64,000 nt of DNA, taken from positions 49,140 through 113,139 of the forward strand of contig NZ_BLZO01000057.1 in NCBI RefSeq assembly GCF_014132355.1, given 5' to 3'. Position numbers and translations under genes: made by a program. Within the stretch, counting starts at the first letter, position 1. Every line of letters starts with the position of its first letter. The stretch is from Okeania sp. KiyG1 (GTDB lineage: Bacteria; Cyanobacteriota; Cyanobacteriia; Cyanobacteriales; Microcoleaceae). Under the pieces are notes generated by a model. It was not told the DNA's origin. It saw only the letters and a list, made by a program, of their open reading frames with translations, and did not search any database. Below, piece after piece: positions 49,595 to 60,107 of this stretch.

Positions 49595-50945
49595 AAGCTA
49601 AACAAATCCGGAATACTTTTTACCGGGAGCAGATTTTCATTTTGTTCTTTTAATTGTCTATTCTTACATTTAATTTTCGTCGGGGTTACTACCTAGGTTT
49701 TCCATTCCGGAATACTTTTTACCGGGAGCAGATTTTATAGGAGGGGTTACTACCTAGGTTTTCCATTCCGGAATACTTTTTACCGGGAGCAGATTTTCAT
49801 TTTGTTCTTTTAATTGTCTATTCTTACATTTAATTTTAGTCGGGGTTGCCCCTAGCTTTTCCGTTCCGGAACACTTTTTTTTCGGAGCATACTTTAACTG
49901 TCTATTCTTACATTTAATTTTCGTCGGGGTTGTTCTCTAGTTTTTATGTTCCGGAATACTTTTTACCGGGAGCAGATTTTCATGAGCAGACTTTAACTGT
50001 CTATCAGTCATTTAATTTTCGTCGGGGTTGCCCCCTAGCTTTTCCATTCCGGAATACTTTTTACCGGGAGCAGACTTTAACTGTCTATTCTTACATTTAA
50101 TTTTCGTCGGGGTTGGTCTGTAGTTTTTATGTTCCGGAATACTTTTTTTTCGGAGTATATTTTCAAAGATGTTCTTTTATATTGTCTATTCTTACATTTA
50201 ATTTTCGTCGGGGTTGGTCTGTAGTTTTTATGTTCCGGAATACTTTTTTTTCGGAGTATATTTTCAAAGATGTTCTTTTATATTGTCTATTCTTACATTT
50301 AATTTTCGTCGGGGTTGCCCCTAGCTTTTCCGTTCCGGAATACTTTTTTTTCGGAGCAGACTTTAACTGTCTATTCTTACATTTAATTTTCGTCGGGGTT
50401 GGTCTGTAGTTTTTATGTTCCGGAATACTTTTTTCGGAGTATATTTTCAAAGATGTTCTTTTATATTGTCTATTCTTACATTTAATTTTCCTCGGGGTTG
50501 CCCCTAGCTTTTCCGTTCCGGAATACTTTTTTTTCGGAGCAGACTTTAACTGTCTATTCTTACATTTAATTTTCGTCGGGGTTGGTCTGTAGTTTTTATG
50601 TTCCGGAATACTTTTTTTTCGGAGTATATTTTCAAAGATGTTCTTTTATATTGTCTATTCTTACATTTAATTTTCCTCGGGGTTGCCCCTAGCTTTTCCG
50701 TTCCGGAATACTTTTTTTTCGGAGTATATTTTCAAAGATGTTCTTTTATATTGTCTATTCTTACATTTAATTTTCCTCGGGTTGCCCCTAGCTTTTCCGT
50801 TCCGGAATACTTTTTTTTCGGAGCAGACTTTAACTGTCTATTCTTACATTTAATTTTCGTCGGGGTTGGTCTGTAGTTTTTATGTTCCGGAATACTTTTT
50901 TTTCGGAGTATATTTTCAAAGATGTTCTTTTAATTGTCTATAAGA
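49595..50945. repeat. 1.35-kb interspersed tandem array
   Basis: About fifteen units are centred on TTCCGGAATACTTTTTTTTC, spaced 85-105 bp. Two spacer types alternate: one with GGAGTATATTTTCAAAGATG and one with GGAGCAGACTTTAACTGTC. Each is followed by TATTCTTACATTTAATTTTC and GTCGGGGTT, then GGTCTGTAG or GCCCCTAGC. Both strands show open frames 90-98 codons long, made only of the repeat. It separates the MFS gene from hemB and ends against an IS605-type end. Confidence 0.9.
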
Positions 50946-52350: not shown

Positions 52351-53011
52351 AGCTTTGTTGCATGAAAGTATATAACTGCCACACTTGCTTGTGCATATGT
52401 ACTTCATAACGTGCGGAAACTGCTGTTACTATTGGACAATAGTTACATAAAAATTCTGAAACTTTTACCTGTAATAGCTTTGAGGTTTAATCAGTACCAT
52501 CAAAGCATATAGCTGCCACACTTGCTGAGTATATGTACTTCATAACGTGCGGAAACTGCTGTTACTATTGGACAATAGTTACATAAAAATTCTGAAACTT
52601 TTACCTGTAATAGCTTTGAGGTTTAATCAGTACCATCAAAGCATATAGCTGCCACACTTGCTGAGTATATGTACTTCATAACGTGCGGAAACTGCTGTTA
52701 CTATTGGACAATAGTTACATAAAAATTCTGAAACTTTTACCTGTAATAGCTTTGAGGTTTAATCAGTACCATCAAAGCATATAGCTGCCACACTTGCTGA
52801 GTATATGTACTTCATAACGTGCGGAAACTGCTGTTACTATTGGACAATAGTTACATAAAAATTCTGAAACTTTTACCTGTAATAGCTTTGAGGTTTAATC
52901 AGTAGTTCAATAACTATTGGACAATAGATGATATAGAACATCAATCTATAGAAAGAGAGCGATATAGCTGCGGAATGGATGTTAAGAACGCTACTTTCAT
53001 GCAACAAAGCC
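52351..53011. mobile_element. 661-bp MITE with internal 136-bp tandem repeats
   Basis: The left end AGCTTTGTTGCATGAAAGTA and the right end, inverse, differ at one base out of 20. AAAGAAGGG flanks both sides (52342-52350 and 53012-53020), a 9-bp target duplication. Inside are four units of 136-137 bp starting near 52368, 52505, 52641 and 52777, the last three nearly identical. Each contains the palindrome ACTATTGGACAATAGT and the block CATAACGTGCGGAAACTGCT. There is no reading frame of note, so it is non-autonomous. Confidence 0.9.
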
Positions 53012-53020
53012 AAAGAAGGG

Positions 53021-53197
53021 CGGAAAAATCAAGGGACAAATATATCCGACTACCTCCTCTTTACAGTTATCAGTTATCAGTTATTAGTTATCAGTAAAGA
53101 GTTTACAGTTAACAGCCTTTAGTTTTCAGTATTCAGTTAGTTTTTAGTTTTTGTTTCTAGTAACTGTTATAAATAACTATTAACTATTAACTATTAA
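53021..53197. other. short spacer with heptamers
   Basis: TTATCAG units lie at about 53066-53095, followed by degenerate TTAACAGTTA and TAACTATTAACTATT tracts. No gene is seen. Confidence 0.5.
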
Positions 53198-53464
53198 CTA
53201 TATTTTTTGATAGACTACAGTTCTAAAGGAAACTTGATTAGTATTCGGATTATAAAAAGTATAGGTAGCATTTCCCGGCAAACTTCCCACATTACCTACC
53301 CCTATAACCTGACGTAGTTTTGTCAAAGTTTGAGTAGATGATGTTGTCTCAATAGCACCTACTTCAGCTCCCAACTTTGTCACTCCACTACTCACCGAAC
53401 CATTTTCCAACTGATATTGAAAAGCTAAACCAGAGCGACCACAAAATAAAATTAAGATTAGCAA
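53198..53464 (-). pseudogene. C-terminal fragment of a phosphoesterase-like gene
   Basis: The 88 codons after position 53464 match the last third of the protein at 61075-61806: FCGRSGLAFQYQLENGSVSSG, GAEVGAIETTSSTQTL, VIGVGNVGSLPGNATYTFYN. Nucleotide identity is high, which suggests recent copying. It lies directly downstream of the truncated amine oxidase part and probably replaced its true 3' end. Confidence 0.8.
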
Positions 53465-53481
53465 TCTTCTTTAAAACCTTT

Positions 53482-54201
53482 CTAAACTGAATAGGCAGTG
53501 TAAATAGTTTGTAAGGCTCTTTGCACAATATCTTCATCTGAAAGTGCCGATAAAGCTAAAGCTGGGGGCCCCCCATTTAAAACCATAATGATAGGTTCTT
53601 TAATGTATGGATAAAGATTAAACCATTGGTTAAACTGCCCCCGAGGAAGATCGTTTTCTGGAGTTAATATCCAGGTAGTTGATAAATCCCAGAATGGCCG
53701 ATCGAATAACAAATAAACTTTGTCTAAAGTCCCCATTCCGAGTCTATCGATAGCTCGCTGCTTATTTGTGGGCAATACAGGATTGAACTTGATATCTCCT
53801 CTTTTGAGTACACCAAGGGGGACTGTGACCAAAACCGCATCAAAAGATTGATTATTAATTTTCTCAAAACCCAGTGTTACCCCTTTTTGAGTTCTCGAAA
53901 TTTCCTTAACCAGTGTATTCAATTTAATTTTGTAGTCACCCTTGAAAGCTTCCAAAATGCCTGCGTATCCATTTGGGAATATGACATCGGGACCATCATA
54001 GTCGTTCACAAATAGATAAGCCAACTGATTGATTTGATCTTCATTTGTTCCAGCCGTGTGCTGGATACTAACGACATTTTCCAACCATCTTGGGGCATCG
54101 CGGTCTCTAATTTTACGCCCACCACGTCCTCGAATAATGTAATCCTCTTTTTCCGTTTGGATAAGTCGCTGACCTAACCCCTCGGCCAAATCCACAAGGG
54201 G
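53482..54201 (-). pseudogene. amine oxidase, middle part
   Basis: The part reads LVDLAEGLGQRL, DGPDVIFPNGYAGILEAF, AVLVTVPLGVLKRGDIKF, AIDRLGMGTLDKVYLLFDRP and YIKEPIIMVLNGGP, the substrate-domain body of a flavin amine oxidase. It joins perfectly to the part at 55547-56050 if the TnpB element is removed (Gly-Asn-Pro-Leu across the joint). It ends at TIYTAYSV and lacks the usual C-terminal FAD-contact segment, which instead lies near the N-terminus of the upstream part. Confidence 0.85.
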
Positions 54202-54202
54202 G

Positions 54203-55548
54203 TGATTAACTGTTGAATGAAAATTGTAAAAGCGTAGTTGCTATTATAAGAAAAGTGTTGTAATATTAAACAGGTACAGGACTTAAAATGAATTATAGCG
54301 GGTGAATGCGACTTGTTGACAGACATATTATTAACCGAACACATCAGTATTGGCGAGTGTGTGATGAGTTAGCCTTTAAATCAAAAAACTTGTACAACTT
54401 GGCTAACTATTATTGTCGTCAGCATTTTTTCAAGTGTGGAAAAAGTCTAGATTTAACTAAACTGTACCACACCACCAAAGATAGCGATGCCTATAGAGCA
54501 TTACCAACTAAAGTATCAAAACAAATAATAAAATGCTTGGTTGCAACTTGGCGTGGTTATTTTCAGGCAATCACAGAATGGTCAAAACATCCAGAGAAGT
54601 TTTTAGGTAAACCAAAAATACCAAAGTATAAGGACAAAACCAAAGGTAGAAATGTAGTTATATATTCAAAGGAATCAGTCTATAGAGCAAGTCTAAAAGA
54701 TGGTATTTGTCACTTATCAATGAGTGAGATCAAAATACCTGTAGTTGTGGAAACAGTAATCGAAGTCAGGATAGTACCTGCTACTAGCTGCTATATAATT
54801 GAAGTAGTGTATGAAAAAACGAATCAGCCACAAATACACTCAACATATGTAGCCGGAATTGACTTAGGAATTGACAGATTAGTTGCTCTATCTACAAACA
54901 AGCCTGGTGTTAAGCCTATGCTTGTTAACGGGAAGCCACTAAAAAGTGTTAATCAGCTTTACAACAAGCGTAAAGCCAAGTACCAAAGTTATCTCAAAGG
55001 GAACAGAAAAACCAGTCGTAAGATTGAAGCATTAAGTTATCATAGAAATCGTTTTGTGGAGAATTATCTGCATAACACCAGTAAATTAGTTGTCAATTAT
55101 TTAGTGATTAATAATATTGGTACTGTAGTCATAGGAAAAAATGATAACTGGAAACAAAGTGCAAATATAGGCAAAAAAAACAACCAAAATTTCACCCAAA
55201 TACCACATAATAAGTTAATCAAGCAAATTACTTATAAATGTCAGCTAGCAGGAATCAAGGTGATTGAAACAGAGGAAAGCTATACAAGCAAAACATCTGC
55301 CCTTGACCTTGAGAAACCAATTAAACATGAAACTTATGGGGGTAAACGAGTCAAACGTGGTTTATTCAGGAGTAGAACTGGTATAGTCATTAATGCCGAT
55401 ATCAATGGCAGTCTTCAAATAATTAGAAAGAAATTCCCAGGGGCATTTACTGCCGAGGGAATAGTGAGCTGCGCCGTACAGCCAGTATTGGTTAATCCAG
55501 TATCAAGATAAAAGCTGTCACGATTTTCTACAGTTTTTTTCGTACGGT
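54203..55548 (+). mobile_element. TnpB-type IS element (IS200/IS605 group) inside the amine oxidase gene
   Basis: The element lies between flanks ending CCACAAGGGGG and starting TTTCCATTTATCC, placing its borders within one or two bases. Joining the flanks restores the amine oxidase codons Asn-Pro-Leu. There is no tnpA, so it would depend on a transposase in trans. The last 90 bases hold complementary blocks AAAGCTGTC-ACGATTTTCT-ACAG and end CGTACGG; the right-end region is where the guide-type RNA of TnpB elements is encoded. Confidence 0.85.
54306..55511 (+). CDS. tnpB: TnpB, RNA-guided nuclease of IS605-type element
   Basis: The 401-residue protein is full length for the zinc-ribbon-poor TnpB group. 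The RuvC motifs are GIDLGIDRLVAL (first aspartate), the glutamate in IETEESYTSKTS, and INADINGSL (last aspartate). The N-terminus (MRLVDRHIINRTHQYWRVCD, FKSKNLYNLANYY) is complete. TnpB proteins use an RNA from the element's right end to cut DNA next to a short motif. There is no CxxC pair between the last two motifs, as usual for this subgroup. All catalytic residues are present. Confidence 0.93.
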   Translation: MRLVDRHIINRTHQYWRVCDELAFKSKNLYNLANYYCRQHFFKCGKSLDLTKLYHTTKDSDAYRALPTKVSKQIIKCLVATWRGYFQAITEWSKHPEKFLGKPKIPKYKDKTKGRNVVIYSKESVYRASLKDGICHLSMSEIKIPVVVETVIEVRIVPATSCYIIEVVYEKTNQPQIHSTYVAGIDLGIDRLVALSTNKPGVKPMLVNGKPLKSVNQLYNKRKAKYQSYLKGNRKTSRKIEALSYHRNRFVENYLHNTSKLVVNYLVINNIGTVVIGKNDNWKQSANIGKKNNQNFTQIPHNKLIKQITYKCQLAGIKVIETEESYTSKTSALDLEKPIKHETYGGKRVKRGLFRSRTGIVINADINGSLQIIRKKFPGAFTAEGIVSCAVQPVLVNPVSR

Positions 55549-56050
55549 TTCCATTTATCCCATGAATCCAACTAGCTCCCAGTTCCAATGGTACTCCCAG
55601 TCGGTCATCTGTCCATATCCGTCCCCCAATGCGATCGCGTGCTTCAAACACAGTAACTTCTCGACCATTTGTAGAAAGTTTATGTGCTGAAGCAAGGCCA
55701 CTCATTCCCGCACCAATAATTGCAATCCTATCAGCACTACCTTGCAAAATTGAGTTAGCTGCCCGAAGCCCGGATTCGTAGGCAGCATGAACTGTACTGT
55801 TGTGCTTTGGAAAAGTAGCTTCACCAGCAAAAAATATCTTCTTGTCAATGGGCTGCTCCAGGGCACCAATGTCACTGCGCGAAGCTCCCTTTGGGATGTG
55901 TGAATATGAGCCATAAGTGTAGGGATCGCGACTCCAATTGGTTCGGATGTAGCCCAGAAGCTTTTGTTTTTTTGCCTGAAAACTTTGCCAGGGCAAGAAA
56001 TTCAAAAGTAAGCCACTTGTAACTCCATGTAGTAATAATCGTCGATTCAT
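55547..56050 (-). pseudogene. amine oxidase, N-terminal part with permuted C-terminal segment
   Basis: 168 residues precede the TnpB insertion. After a signal-like start (MNRRLLLHGVTSGLLL) come residues 33-101, RTNWSRDPYTYGSYSHIPKG and KIFFAGEAT at 72-79, which in ordinary amine oxidases form the C-terminus. Only then comes the dinucleotide-binding start IAIIGAGMSGLASAHKL (110-126) with FEARDRIGGRIW. Thus the C-terminal FAD-contact segment precedes the N-terminal one. With the TnpB element removed, about 410 residues would form one frame with every expected piece, in permuted order. Confidence 0.85.
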
Positions 56051-56333
56051 TTTTAGCTAGATTTATCAAAAGATCATTAGTTACTTTAGCCTAAATTTGA
56101 TAAACATTAAGTATAGTCAAAAAGTGTTTGGGGAAGGGTAGAGCGATCGCTTATCTGCTATAATTTTCCTTATTTAGATTCCACAAAATTGTCAATCTGT
56201 CGAACTACTGATTAGAGAGCTACAAAAAGTCAGCATTTTCAGCACAGAAGGGCGGAAAAATCAAGGGACAAATATATCCGACGACCTCCTCATTTTTTGG
56301 TGAAAAATTTAACCTTTTCTTCCACTAAATAAG
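56051..56333. repeat. intergenic with a TTAGGG-type repeat fragment
   Basis: 56220-56285 (AAAAAGTCAGCATTTTCAGC, AGAAGGGCGGAAAAATCAAG) is the uninterrupted version of the sequence split by the 661-bp MITE at 52.3 kb. No gene is seen. Confidence 0.55.
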
Positions 56334-58583
56334 CTAGCCATTTTTATAAGTTACGGTTCTAAAAGAAACTTCATTAGTATTAGGATTGTAAAGAGTATAG
56401 GTAGCATTCCTCGGCAAACTTCCCACATTACCTACCGTCAGTCCCGATCTAGAGAGAGTTCGGAGTTCCGCTCCAGTTGCCAAATCCCAGACTTTGATGG
56501 TGCCGTCTTCACTGCCAGAAACAATGGTCTTGCCATCGTTGCTGATACTGACGCTATAGACTGAGTCTTCATGTCCAGAGAGAGTGCGGAGTTCGGCTCC
56601 AGTTTCCAAATCCCAGATTTTGATGGTGTTGCCATAACTGCTAGAAACAATGGTCTTGCCATCGTTGGTGATACTGACGTTATTGACTCCGCTTTCATCT
56701 CCTGTGAGAGTGCGGAGTTCCTCTCCAGTTGCCAAATCCCAGACTTTGATGGTGCCGTCACTACTGCCAGAAACAATGGTCTTGCCATCATTGCTGATAC
56801 TGACGCTCAAGATACTGATTCTAAACCCCGTATAGACTGTGCTTTCATTTCCAGAGAGAGTGTGGAGTTCCGCTCCAGTTGCCAAATTCCAGACTTTGAT
56901 GGTGTTACTGCTAGAAACAATGGTCTTGCCATCGTTGCTGATACTGACGCTATTGACTCTGCGTTCATGTCCTGTGAGAGTGCGGAGTTCGGCTCCAGTT
57001 GACAAATCCCAGATTTTGATTATGCCGTCATAACCGCTAGAAACAATGGTCTTGCCATCGTTGCTGATACTGACGTTATTGACTGTGCTTTCATGTCCTG
57101 TGAGAGTGCGGAGTTCCGCTCCAGTTGCCAAATCCCAGATTTTGATGGTGTTGTCATTACTGCCAGAAACAATGGTCTTACCATCGTTGCTGATACTGAC
57201 GTTATTGACTGTGCTTTCATGTCCTGTGAGAGTGCGGAGTTCCGCTCCAGTTGCCAAATCCCAGATTTTGATGGTCTCGTCATAACCGCCAGAAACAATA
57301 GTCTTGCCATCGTTGCTAATACTGACGCTATAGATTGGGCTATCATATCCAGGTAAAGTGCGGAGTTCGGCTCCAGTTGCCAAATCCCAGATTTTGGTTT
57401 TGTATTTACCGACAAAAAAAATGGTCTTGCCATCGTTGCTGATACTGACCCTTCCGCGTTCATCTTCAGTAAGAGTGTAGAGTTCGGCTCCAGTTGCCAA
57501 ATCCCAGACTTTGATGATGTTGTCAAAATTGACAGAAACAATGGTCTTGCCATCATTGCTGATACTGACGCTTGTGACTGTGGTTTCATTTCCAGAGAGA
57601 GTGCGGAGTTCGGCTCCAGTTGTCAAATCCCAGACTTTGATGGTTTTGTCACCACTGCCAGAAACAATGGTCTTGCCATCGTTGCTGATACTGACGCTCA
57701 TGACTCCGACCTCATGTCCAGAGAGAGTGCGGAGTTCGGCTCCAGTTGTCACATCCCAGACTTTGATGGTGTTACCAACGCCAGCAACAATGGTCTTGCC
57801 ATCGTTGCTGATACTGACGGTCTGGATGGCATCAAGTGCATCATTAGGTCCAATAAGAGTGAGGAGTTCGGCCCCAGTTGCCACATCCCAGACTTTGATG
57901 GTGCCGTCTTCACTGCCAGAAACCATGGTCTTGCCATCGTTGCTGATACCGACGCTAAAGATTGCGCCATTATGTCCAAAGAAAGTGCCGAGTTCGTCTC
58001 CAGTTGCCAAATCCCAGACTTTGGTTTTGTCTTCACTGCCAGAAACAAAGGTCTTGGCATCATTATCCCAGACTTTGGTTTTTTCTTCACCGCCAACAAC
58101 AATGGTCTTGGCATCATTGCTGATGCTGACGCTAAAGATTTGGCCATTAAATCCAGTGAGAGGGAAAGTGCGGAGTTTGTCTCCAGTTGCCAAATCCCAG
58201 ATTGTGATGGTGTTGTTACGAATCCTGAAAACAATGGTCTTGCCATTGTTGTTGCTCATACTGACGCTTGAGACTAGGCCATAATCTCCCTGCGTATAGT
58301 TGCGCTGACTGCCTTCATAAATATTGCTTGTCAATTTTCTTTGATCCAATAGAGACATAGAAGCAATAGCTAAGGAATCTACTAGATTAAGTTTTGCTTT
58401 TTTTGTCTGATTCAAAGCCCATCCAGGACCCCCTAAAGTGATTAAGAATAAAACACCGAGAAATGTGGCTCCCAAAGGCAGATGCAGATAATCTCGCTTT
58501 TGTTGTTTTTCCCTATTAATTTTTTCTAACAATTTTCTAGTTTCACTATACTGGGGATGATGTAATCGGATATTAGTTTTCAT
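56334..58583 (-). CDS. membrane-anchored WD40 repeat protein
   Basis: The 749-residue protein has a basic cytoplasmic start, a hydrophobic segment at about 36-57 (LPLGATFLGVLFLITLGG), then about fourteen WD40 blades and one partial blade. They follow the pattern VSISNDGKTIVSGS, TIKVWDLATGAELRTL. The blades are unusually alike in DNA as well as protein, so the gene is being homogenised or has expanded recently; this also leaves long open frames on the other strand. The last 38 residues (VGNVGSLPRNATYTLYNPNT) are not WD40 but match the tail of the phosphoesterase-like protein at 61 kb. Its function is unknown; probably a scaffold. Confidence 0.88.
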   Translation of the reverse strand: MKTNIRLHHPQYSETRKLLEKINREKQQKRDYLHLPLGATFLGVLFLITLGGPGWALNQTKKAKLNLVDSLAIASMSLLDQRKLTSNIYEGSQRNYTQGDYGLVSSVSMSNNNGKTIVFRIRNNTITIWDLATGDKLRTFPLTGFNGQIFSVSISNDAKTIVVGGEEKTKVWDNDAKTFVSGSEDKTKVWDLATGDELGTFFGHNGAIFSVGISNDGKTMVSGSEDGTIKVWDVATGAELLTLIGPNDALDAIQTVSISNDGKTIVAGVGNTIKVWDVTTGAELRTLSGHEVGVMSVSISNDGKTIVSGSGDKTIKVWDLTTGAELRTLSGNETTVTSVSISNDGKTIVSVNFDNIIKVWDLATGAELYTLTEDERGRVSISNDGKTIFFVGKYKTKIWDLATGAELRTLPGYDSPIYSVSISNDGKTIVSGGYDETIKIWDLATGAELRTLTGHESTVNNVSISNDGKTIVSGSNDNTIKIWDLATGAELRTLTGHESTVNNVSISNDGKTIVSSGYDGIIKIWDLSTGAELRTLTGHERRVNSVSISNDGKTIVSSSNTIKVWNLATGAELHTLSGNESTVYTGFRISILSVSISNDGKTIVSGSSDGTIKVWDLATGEELRTLTGDESGVNNVSITNDGKTIVSSSYGNTIKIWDLETGAELRTLSGHEDSVYSVSISNDGKTIVSGSEDGTIKVWDLATGAELRTLSRSGLTVGNVGSLPRNATYTLYNPNTNEVSFRTVTYKNG

Positions 58584-58713: not shown

Positions 58714-60107
58714 TTGACATCCTCCCCGGCCTAAAGGCGCGGGGATTCCTACCGAGCCGAAGCTCCTCGGTGGGTTGACGCTTCACAGGCTGCTGCTGCC
58801 AGATGCGGTAGTCTTACGCTTGCCTCCACGTCCGTTTAATGTCTCGGACTGCCCGCCCGCGACTAATATATTTATGGCTGCATTTTCGTCTCTATCATGT
58901 TTTGCACCGCAGTTTAGACACTCCCATTCTCGCACCTTCAAGGTCTAACTTTCCACCTTTGAATCCACAGCTAGAGCAAGTTTGAGATGTGGGTTCAAGG
59001 GCGACTAATTACTCTGAAATCGCGACCATATTTTTCTGCTTTTCCTTCTAGGAATGTTCTGAAAGTGTCTCCACCCTAAATCTGAAATTGCTCTGGATAA
59101 TTTACGGTTTTTCACCATACCAGATACATTCAAATCTTCTAAAACAATTGTTTGGTTTTCACGAATTATTTCAGTGGATAATTTATGTAGAAAGTCTGTT
59201 CTTGTATCTTTCAGTTTGCCATGGAATTTAGCTACTCTAATCCGTGCTTTTTCATACCTTTTAGAGCCTTTAGTTTTATGAGATAATGACAAACTTTACC
59301 TTTCTTAATTTCTTAATTCGTTTCTTCAGTGGCTTAGGAGCATCAACCTTTGTACCATCACTAAATGTAGCAAAGGTTTTAATACCTAAATCTATACCTA
59401 CTGAATTATCAGTTTGAGGTAAGATTTCTGGTTGTATTTCTACTACAAAACTCAAGAAATATCTATGTAGGGGCGAACGGCCGTTCGCCCCTACGTCTTT
59501 AATTACTGTTACTGATGATGGAGCAGCAGGTAACTCTCTTGACCATACAATTTTCAGCTTTCCTATCTTTGCTAAATAAACTTTATGTTGACCAACTTTA
59601 AACCCTCCCTTTGTAAATCTAGCAGTTGCGAGCGACTTTTTACTTTTAAATTTAGGAGGTTTAACAGGTTTACCTTTTCTCTGGCCTTGAGTTGATTTAA
59701 AAAAGTTTGTAGGGGCGAACGGCCGTTCGCCCCTACGGTTTAAATCATTCAAGGACTGCTGCAGTGGTATATTAGAAACCTCTGACAACCATTCTCTGCA
59801 TTCAGTCTTTTTAGCTTGAGTAATAAAAAGCTTTTGTAGTTCAGAATTAGTGGGCTTATTTTCTCCCGATTTATACTTCTGTTGGCAACAAGCTAGACTA
59901 TCATTCACTCGCCACACGGACACAGCCAAATAGCTTGGCTAATCGGTATTTTTGTCCCGGCGTTGGATATATACGGTACTTAAATCTAGCTTTCATAACT
60001 TGACGCATCAAACTAACAACATAATAACATATTTATTGAAAAAAATCAACCCGCAAGCAATAAAAAGTCGCCCTAGAAGGGCGAGGCTTGAGACCCATTT
60101 TTTCGGT
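58714..60107 (-). mobile_element. decayed IS605-type element with broken tnpB
   Basis: The right end (TTGACATCCTCCCCGGCC and hairpin GGGGATTCC) is at 58714; the left end (AAAAAGTCGCCCT, GGGCGAGGCTT, TTTTTTCGGT) ends at 60107. The same two ends form the short element at 4056-4315. It contains no tnpA. Confidence 0.85.
58855..59996 (-). pseudogene. tnpB with frameshifts and palindrome insertions
   Basis: From the ATG at 59996 the frame reads KARFKYRIYPTPGQKYRLAK and then shifts near 59915. The next frame holds NDSLACCQQKYKSGE, PPKFKSKKS, VGIDLGIKTFATFSDG. A further shift near 59280 leads to LSHKTKGSKRYEKARIRVAK and VLEDLNVSGMVKN. The zinc-ribbon end ([22 protein letters not shown]) is spread over two frames at 58860-58980. 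Two copies of the palindrome GGGGCGAACGGCCGTTCGCC lie within the coding sequence, at 59468-59495 and 59709-59737, each without closing the frame. The gene cannot give full-length TnpB. Confidence 0.85.

Follow-up and report, generated by a model that had tools for sequence, protein, structure and literature searches.

A flavin amine oxidase gene of rotated segment order, split by a TnpB element in Okeania, and its intact relatives

The window analysed here, a stretch of 64,000 nucleotides from Okeania sp. KiyG1 (contig NZ_BLZO01000057.1, positions 49,140 to 113,139), carries on its minus strand, between positions 56050 and 53482, an amine oxidase gene whose segments do not stand in the usual order and which is cut in two by a TnpB element. 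Flavin amine oxidases such as monoamine oxidase (MAO), polyamine oxidase and LSD1 have been studied intensely, and their flavin adenine dinucleotide (FAD) domain is built from segments that lie far apart in the chain. The question raised by this locus is whether such segments follow one another in rotated order within one gene, or whether two broken genes lie side by side here. We consider it very likely that this gene, disrupted by an insertion, belongs to a natural family of flavin amine oxidases that are related to the ordinary ones by circular permutation.

Segment order and insertion in the window gene

Read on the minus strand from 56050, a single open frame begins with a leader resembling a twin-arginine translocation (Tat) signal (55970..56050, residues 1-27, MNRRLLLHG..., its end estimated from the sequence), followed by the FAD-contact segment that is C-terminal in ordinary enzymes and here comes first (C block, 55739..55957, TNWSRDPYTYGSYS ... 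FFAGEAT ... STVHAAYESGLRAAN). Directly behind it stands the dinucleotide-binding fold (N block, 55547..55738, IAIIGAGMSGL ... EARDRIGGR ... WIHGINGN), so that the frame passes from ...TNWSRDPYTYGSYS...FFAGEAT...STVHAAYESGLRAANSILQ to GSADRIAIIGAGMSGL...FEARDRIGGR...WIHGINGN and then meets the TnpB element. The amine oxidase body restarts at 54203 and runs to a stop at 53482 (M block, the middle body, 53482..54203, minus strand), with the active-site lysine motif (GMGTLDKVYLLF...FW) and a native 3’ end. A PF01593 profile search of the genome returned its matches in the gene order 363-443, 1-55 and, past the insertion, 186-366; hmmscan of the two gene pieces gave 129.5 and 96.5 bits (cut-off 19.8) in the same rotated order, with the M block at 186-364. 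The upstream piece, 211 amino acids (aa) long, likewise matched a spermine oxidase chain twice with the order swapped (query 104-170 to 2-69, query 34-103 to 411-481), as it did maize polyamine oxidase, and tblastn (E <= 1e-4) found each of the three blocks once in the window. The rotated order is present in the sequence, far beyond chance, and the sequence-only reading, which had listed each expected segment once and in this order, had the coordinates and frames right. NCBIfam gave no family over its cut-off for the first piece among the best 25 of 48 and no match for the second, and Rfam had no match at 53000-56500. The G+C content of the gene is 43%, that of the window 37.5%.

The interruption is a TnpB-only element of IS605 type, about 1.34 kb long and on the plus strand (54204..55548, delimited by flank alignment and genome copies, its ends uncertain by a few bases), whose 401-aa tnpB (54306..55511, plus strand) contains the OrfB_IS605 and TNB domains (PF01385, 70.9 bits; PF07282, 43.6 bits). 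Uninterrupted relatives align to the flanks up to 54203 and again from 55546, which marks the empty site, and copies in the genome have 54199/54200 to 55548 in common; the element gave 41 matches in the window's genome, many of them partial, and six copies besides that of the window extend over the full length of the query at 85-90% identity. Domains, empty site and genome copies together bear out the earlier suggestion that a TnpB element split the gene later. Because neither gene piece has an internal stop as far as the insertion and both are still similar to L013, an intact Okeania relative (ratio of nonsynonymous to synonymous substitution rates, dN/dS, 0.34 and 0.13), the element probably arrived recently. 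It has parted leader, C and N blocks from the M block; the upstream piece reads on into the element and the downstream piece has no leader, and for these reasons the window copy is very probably dead and the enzyme lost. At its second RuvC motif this TnpB (54306-55511) reads VVIGKND; many TnpBs have a glutamate there, and the window protein may be a variant with a shifted catalytic glutamate. A second TnpB-like gene, recognised by eye at 59005-59929 (minus strand), consists of two overlapping frames of 217 and 95 aa and is apparently broken.

A replacement of the 3’ end by a phosphoesterase fragment, as had been proposed from the sequence, did not hold. The M block terminates with ...ALQTIYTAYSV and a stop, as it does in intact Okeania relatives, and in three of six of these the alignment continues for about 180 bases 3’ of it, which rules out a lost 3’ end. 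The downstream 88-aa open reading frame (ORF; 53198..53464, minus strand, no Pfam match) is a dispersed fragment outside the amine oxidase: its stretch 53301-53454 recurs at other places in Okeania loci, and an ORF of the same family also lies just downstream of the gene in the intact locus L009 (7242-7508). Further downstream of the window gene is hemB (ALAD by Pfam), recognised by eye downstream in five intact loci as well, and on this ground the locus looks orthologous to them.

Intact relatives, conserved residues and predicted fold

The genome_contigs collection, described as holding a single genome per species for 84,980 species, was scanned with the 170-aa piece comprising leader, C and N blocks; an exact short-peptide pattern was a prerequisite for a hit, and the scan is hence not exhaustive. 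It yielded 60 loci, 47 of which (L009-L055) matched across the C-N junction and 13 (L056-L068) on one side only. By record title, the junction loci comprise six from Okeania/Hydrocoleum, one from a myxococcal metagenome-assembled genome (MAG) and 40 that we take to be alphaproteobacterial; having been selected by the junction, their number is uninformative on frequency. In 43 of the 47 the rotated order is encoded in one continuous frame of 403-414 aa (start codons chosen by script), the others being broken in frame (L025, L040 and L050) or beginning at a contig edge (L053), and each of the 47, like the window, holds each of the three blocks exactly once. All 43 members of our family profile (profile A1) match PF01593 (E <= 0.001), L013 with 232.7 bits. 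The rotated order is therefore conserved, without the insertion, in Okeania/Hydrocoleum, in Alphaproteobacteria and in two genomes of the Myxococcota-phylum search.

These loci decide between one gene and two. Two adjacent broken amine oxidase genes, or an assembly artefact, might mimic a single rotated gene, the more so as the window copy is interrupted and PF01593 genes also occur elsewhere in its genome (22 stretches match in total, and several of these belong to a single gene). Intact single frames in the same order, some from named isolates, and the presence of each block just once at every locus rule this out, and none of the 47 was seen to combine an ordinary gene with a partial copy. 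Purifying selection acts on both sides of the C-N junction in Okeania/Hydrocoleum, the group in which it was tested (dN/dS about 0.2-0.3). We regard the two-gene explanation as next to impossible, and the claim of one amine oxidase gene in rotated order is upheld by the frames, the block counts and the confident predicted fold of a relative.

Among ORFs of at least 250 aa in the loci, sorted by the order of their segments, 53 distinct proteins have C before N+M and 37 distinct proteins have C after N+M; these 37 are called ordinary relatives below. In 51 of the 53 permuted proteins (two were too short) alignment was possible after rotation, and all 51 keep the dinucleotide-binding GxGxxG ... 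E ... GGR residues (G113, G115, G118, E136, G143 and R144 in L013 numbering), the C-block FAD-contact residues of the W, GxYS and AGE motifs (W39, G47, Y49, S50, A75, G76 and E77) and the middle-body K329. The last is lysine in 36/37 ordinary relatives too, and we take it to be the equivalent of K661 of LSD1 and K300 of maize polyamine oxidase.

The predicted structure of L013 is confident overall, with the leader (residues 1-23) below 50 in predicted local distance difference test (pLDDT). In it five residues separate the former C-terminal helix (87-102) from the strand with which the dinucleotide fold begins (108-112), and the new termini fall between the last middle-body helix (390-405) and the initial strand of the C block (31-36). 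In the chain, ordered leader, C, N, M, only a few linker residues connect the old termini, and the new ones are predicted at that helix-strand border, where 31/37 ordinary relatives have 5-24 residues between their N+M and C matches and six have 49-74. The sequential structure alignment of the model covers only about residues 102-407, without the C block, which such an alignment cannot accommodate; among the best 50 Foldseek matches listed, the template modelling (TM) score by query was 0.59-0.68 and the root-mean-square deviation 3.2-24.6. The chains in the four PDB alignments examined are all in ordinary order, and among the best 60 of 134 PDB matches none had a best stretch that extended over the C as well as the N block.

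Ancestry, spread and surroundings

Since the permuted proteins were rotated before alignment, the order itself is no character in our trees. A quick tree of 94 rows, which includes long branches (among them six paralogues from the window's genome that are only distantly related), placed the permuted proteins on one side of one branch. In a careful tree, from which ten rows (the six paralogues and four long-branch rows) and 17 further, mostly near-copies, had been removed, the 42 permuted rows split from the 25 ordinary ones at 100/100, and in all 200 bootstrap trees. A rotation that arose several times would suit the patchy distribution over three phyla; it is very improbable given this single branch, and the breakpoints are alike in the permuted proteins compared (L053, cut by the contig edge, could not be judged). 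The Okeania proteins are nested in the permuted group, adjoining a Geminicoccaceae MAG (97 in the quick tree, 73/91 in the careful one), which suggests that Okeania may have acquired the gene horizontally from an alphaproteobacterium-like donor.

As to how the rotation came about, duplication and fission-fusion are the main models of circular permutation, cut and paste being mentioned too, in section 3 of PMC3320104. The tandem duplication with deletion put forward in the sequence-only reading is possible as a route; an ORF with two C blocks, which either this or cut and paste would predict somewhere, was absent among 110 ORFs (90 distinct). A course of events in which a C-block copy was inserted behind the leader, in front of the body, and the original C block at the 3’ end then disappeared would be compatible with the family as we describe it and has, in our estimate, slightly less than an even chance. 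A leader with paired arginines stands at the front in both forms (51/53 permuted, 29/37 ordinary), directly before the C block in the permuted one, and the short C-N linkers compared hold no leader remnant, such as a full tandem duplication would initially leave; for these reasons cut and paste seems to fit slightly better, even though a leader may be gained or lost afterwards.

Several observations weigh against the explanation favoured here. Support for the branch in the quick tree was only 84 (Shimodaira-Hasegawa approximate likelihood-ratio test, SH-aLRT), and occurrence is sparse. In whole-genome searches, which drew overlapping samples from larger groups and counted the centre genome each time, profile A1 (E <= 1e-60) was found in 3/385 genomes of the class of Shimia (G153), 15/295 of its family and 3/349 of its phylum, in 2/188 of the phylum of the myxococcal MAG, and in 1/244 of the window's phylum. 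At E <= 1e-10 the junction piece was present in five of six genomes of the window's genus, thus lacking in one, and it matched 28 of 148 genomes of the order, whole only in the window's own, the other 27 giving partial matches (26 of them two), none with both blocks in full. No neighbour is conserved across the family in the flanks of the 47 loci, which differ in length. The region P169-G238 has a median length of 68 residues in permuted and 115 in ordinary proteins, about 45 fewer, so that the two forms differ on the substrate side and the sequence does not reveal what the substrate is. Lastly, placement of the C block on the FAD site would follow from overall model confidence and homology only.

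A conserved operon was considered and rejected: the most widespread neighbour cluster, by eye an ABC-type (ATP-binding cassette) ATPase, occurs in 7/47 loci at varying places, and the remaining shared neighbours resemble local synteny (the Marivita group; hemB in five Okeania/Hydrocoleum loci). Plasmid-borne permuted copies were likewise discarded, as the junction piece of L024, from Nitratireductor sp. XY-223 (tblastn, 72,556 plasmid records), matched two Haloarcula records at 51% and 37% query coverage, both in the 3’-terminal part of a 1,365-base coding sequence (the first extending past the stop) and hence read as ordinary C-terminal segments. Around the window gene lie two pairs of direct repeats with a spacing of about 3.1-3.2 kb (53011-53062 and 56243-56294, 94% over 52 nt; 53205-53300 and 56341-56436, 88% over 96 nt), the second spanning the last stretch of both the 88-aa ORF and a WD40 protein, which end alike. 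One ORF family recurs around the permuted gene in the Okeania loci L009, L010, L011 and L013 (10 ORFs in four loci; one phosphoesterase-like by eye), and repeats at 50113-50876 of the window yield similar ORFs of 92-98 aa (YFFFGVYFQRCSFILSILTF...) with an overlapping one on the opposite strand.

Possible function and comparison with known systems

In the intact relatives the chain would fold like polyamine oxidase or LSD1, bind FAD and oxidise an amine to an imine with reduction of O2 to H2O2, and the twin-arginine-like leader would export the enzyme folded with FAD in place. The rotation would make the two FAD-binding segments, distant in ordinary enzymes, neighbours at the start of the chain. 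Tentatively, and with rather more doubt than confidence, we propose an undescribed family of single origin, active, Tat-exported and spread horizontally among three phyla, whose FAD site could form early, before the substrate domain and before export. The permuted proteins might instead be folded and not oxidise amines at all, acting as FAD-binding sensors, as dehydrogenases with another acceptor, or being dead enzymes; the lack of a known substrate and of pathway context, and the shorter substrate region, speak for this, and we think it unlikely in view of the lysine, tryptophan and FAD-contact residues kept in 51/51 and the low dN/dS. If the permuted amine oxidases are as proposed, the fold can accept chain ends where middle body and C block meet, and the family offers a natural experiment for studying in what order the chain folds and how the cofactor is loaded; its members may escape annotation that counts domain hits regardless of order.

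A permuted amine oxidase was not found in the titles and abstract openings of open-licence PMC literature, which is weak evidence of absence, and flavin amine oxidases are not among the circular-permutant examples in section 3 of PMC3320104. Ordinary members of the PF01593 superfamily (monoamine oxidase, polyamine oxidase, spermine oxidase, LSD1/LSD2) have the order N-M-C and the permuted family C-N-M, with a shorter substrate region, and because of this difference in order we file it as a permuted variant rather than an ordinary member. Compared with L013, all 37 ordinary relatives are 26-35% identical over N+M and 37-58% over C; the cyanobacterial and Chloroflexota enzymes among the closest found (e.g., L094, L087, L065 and L066) reach 32-34% and 47-58%. 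Many share paired arginines in the leader (29/37), and they differ in segment order, in a lipobox-like cysteine in the leader (17/37) and in the longer P169-G238 region. The relationship is the same as in the natural circular permutants described in section 3 of PMC3320104 (saposin and swaposin, transhydrogenases, DNA methyltransferases), where the termini have moved and the homologous parts are kept.
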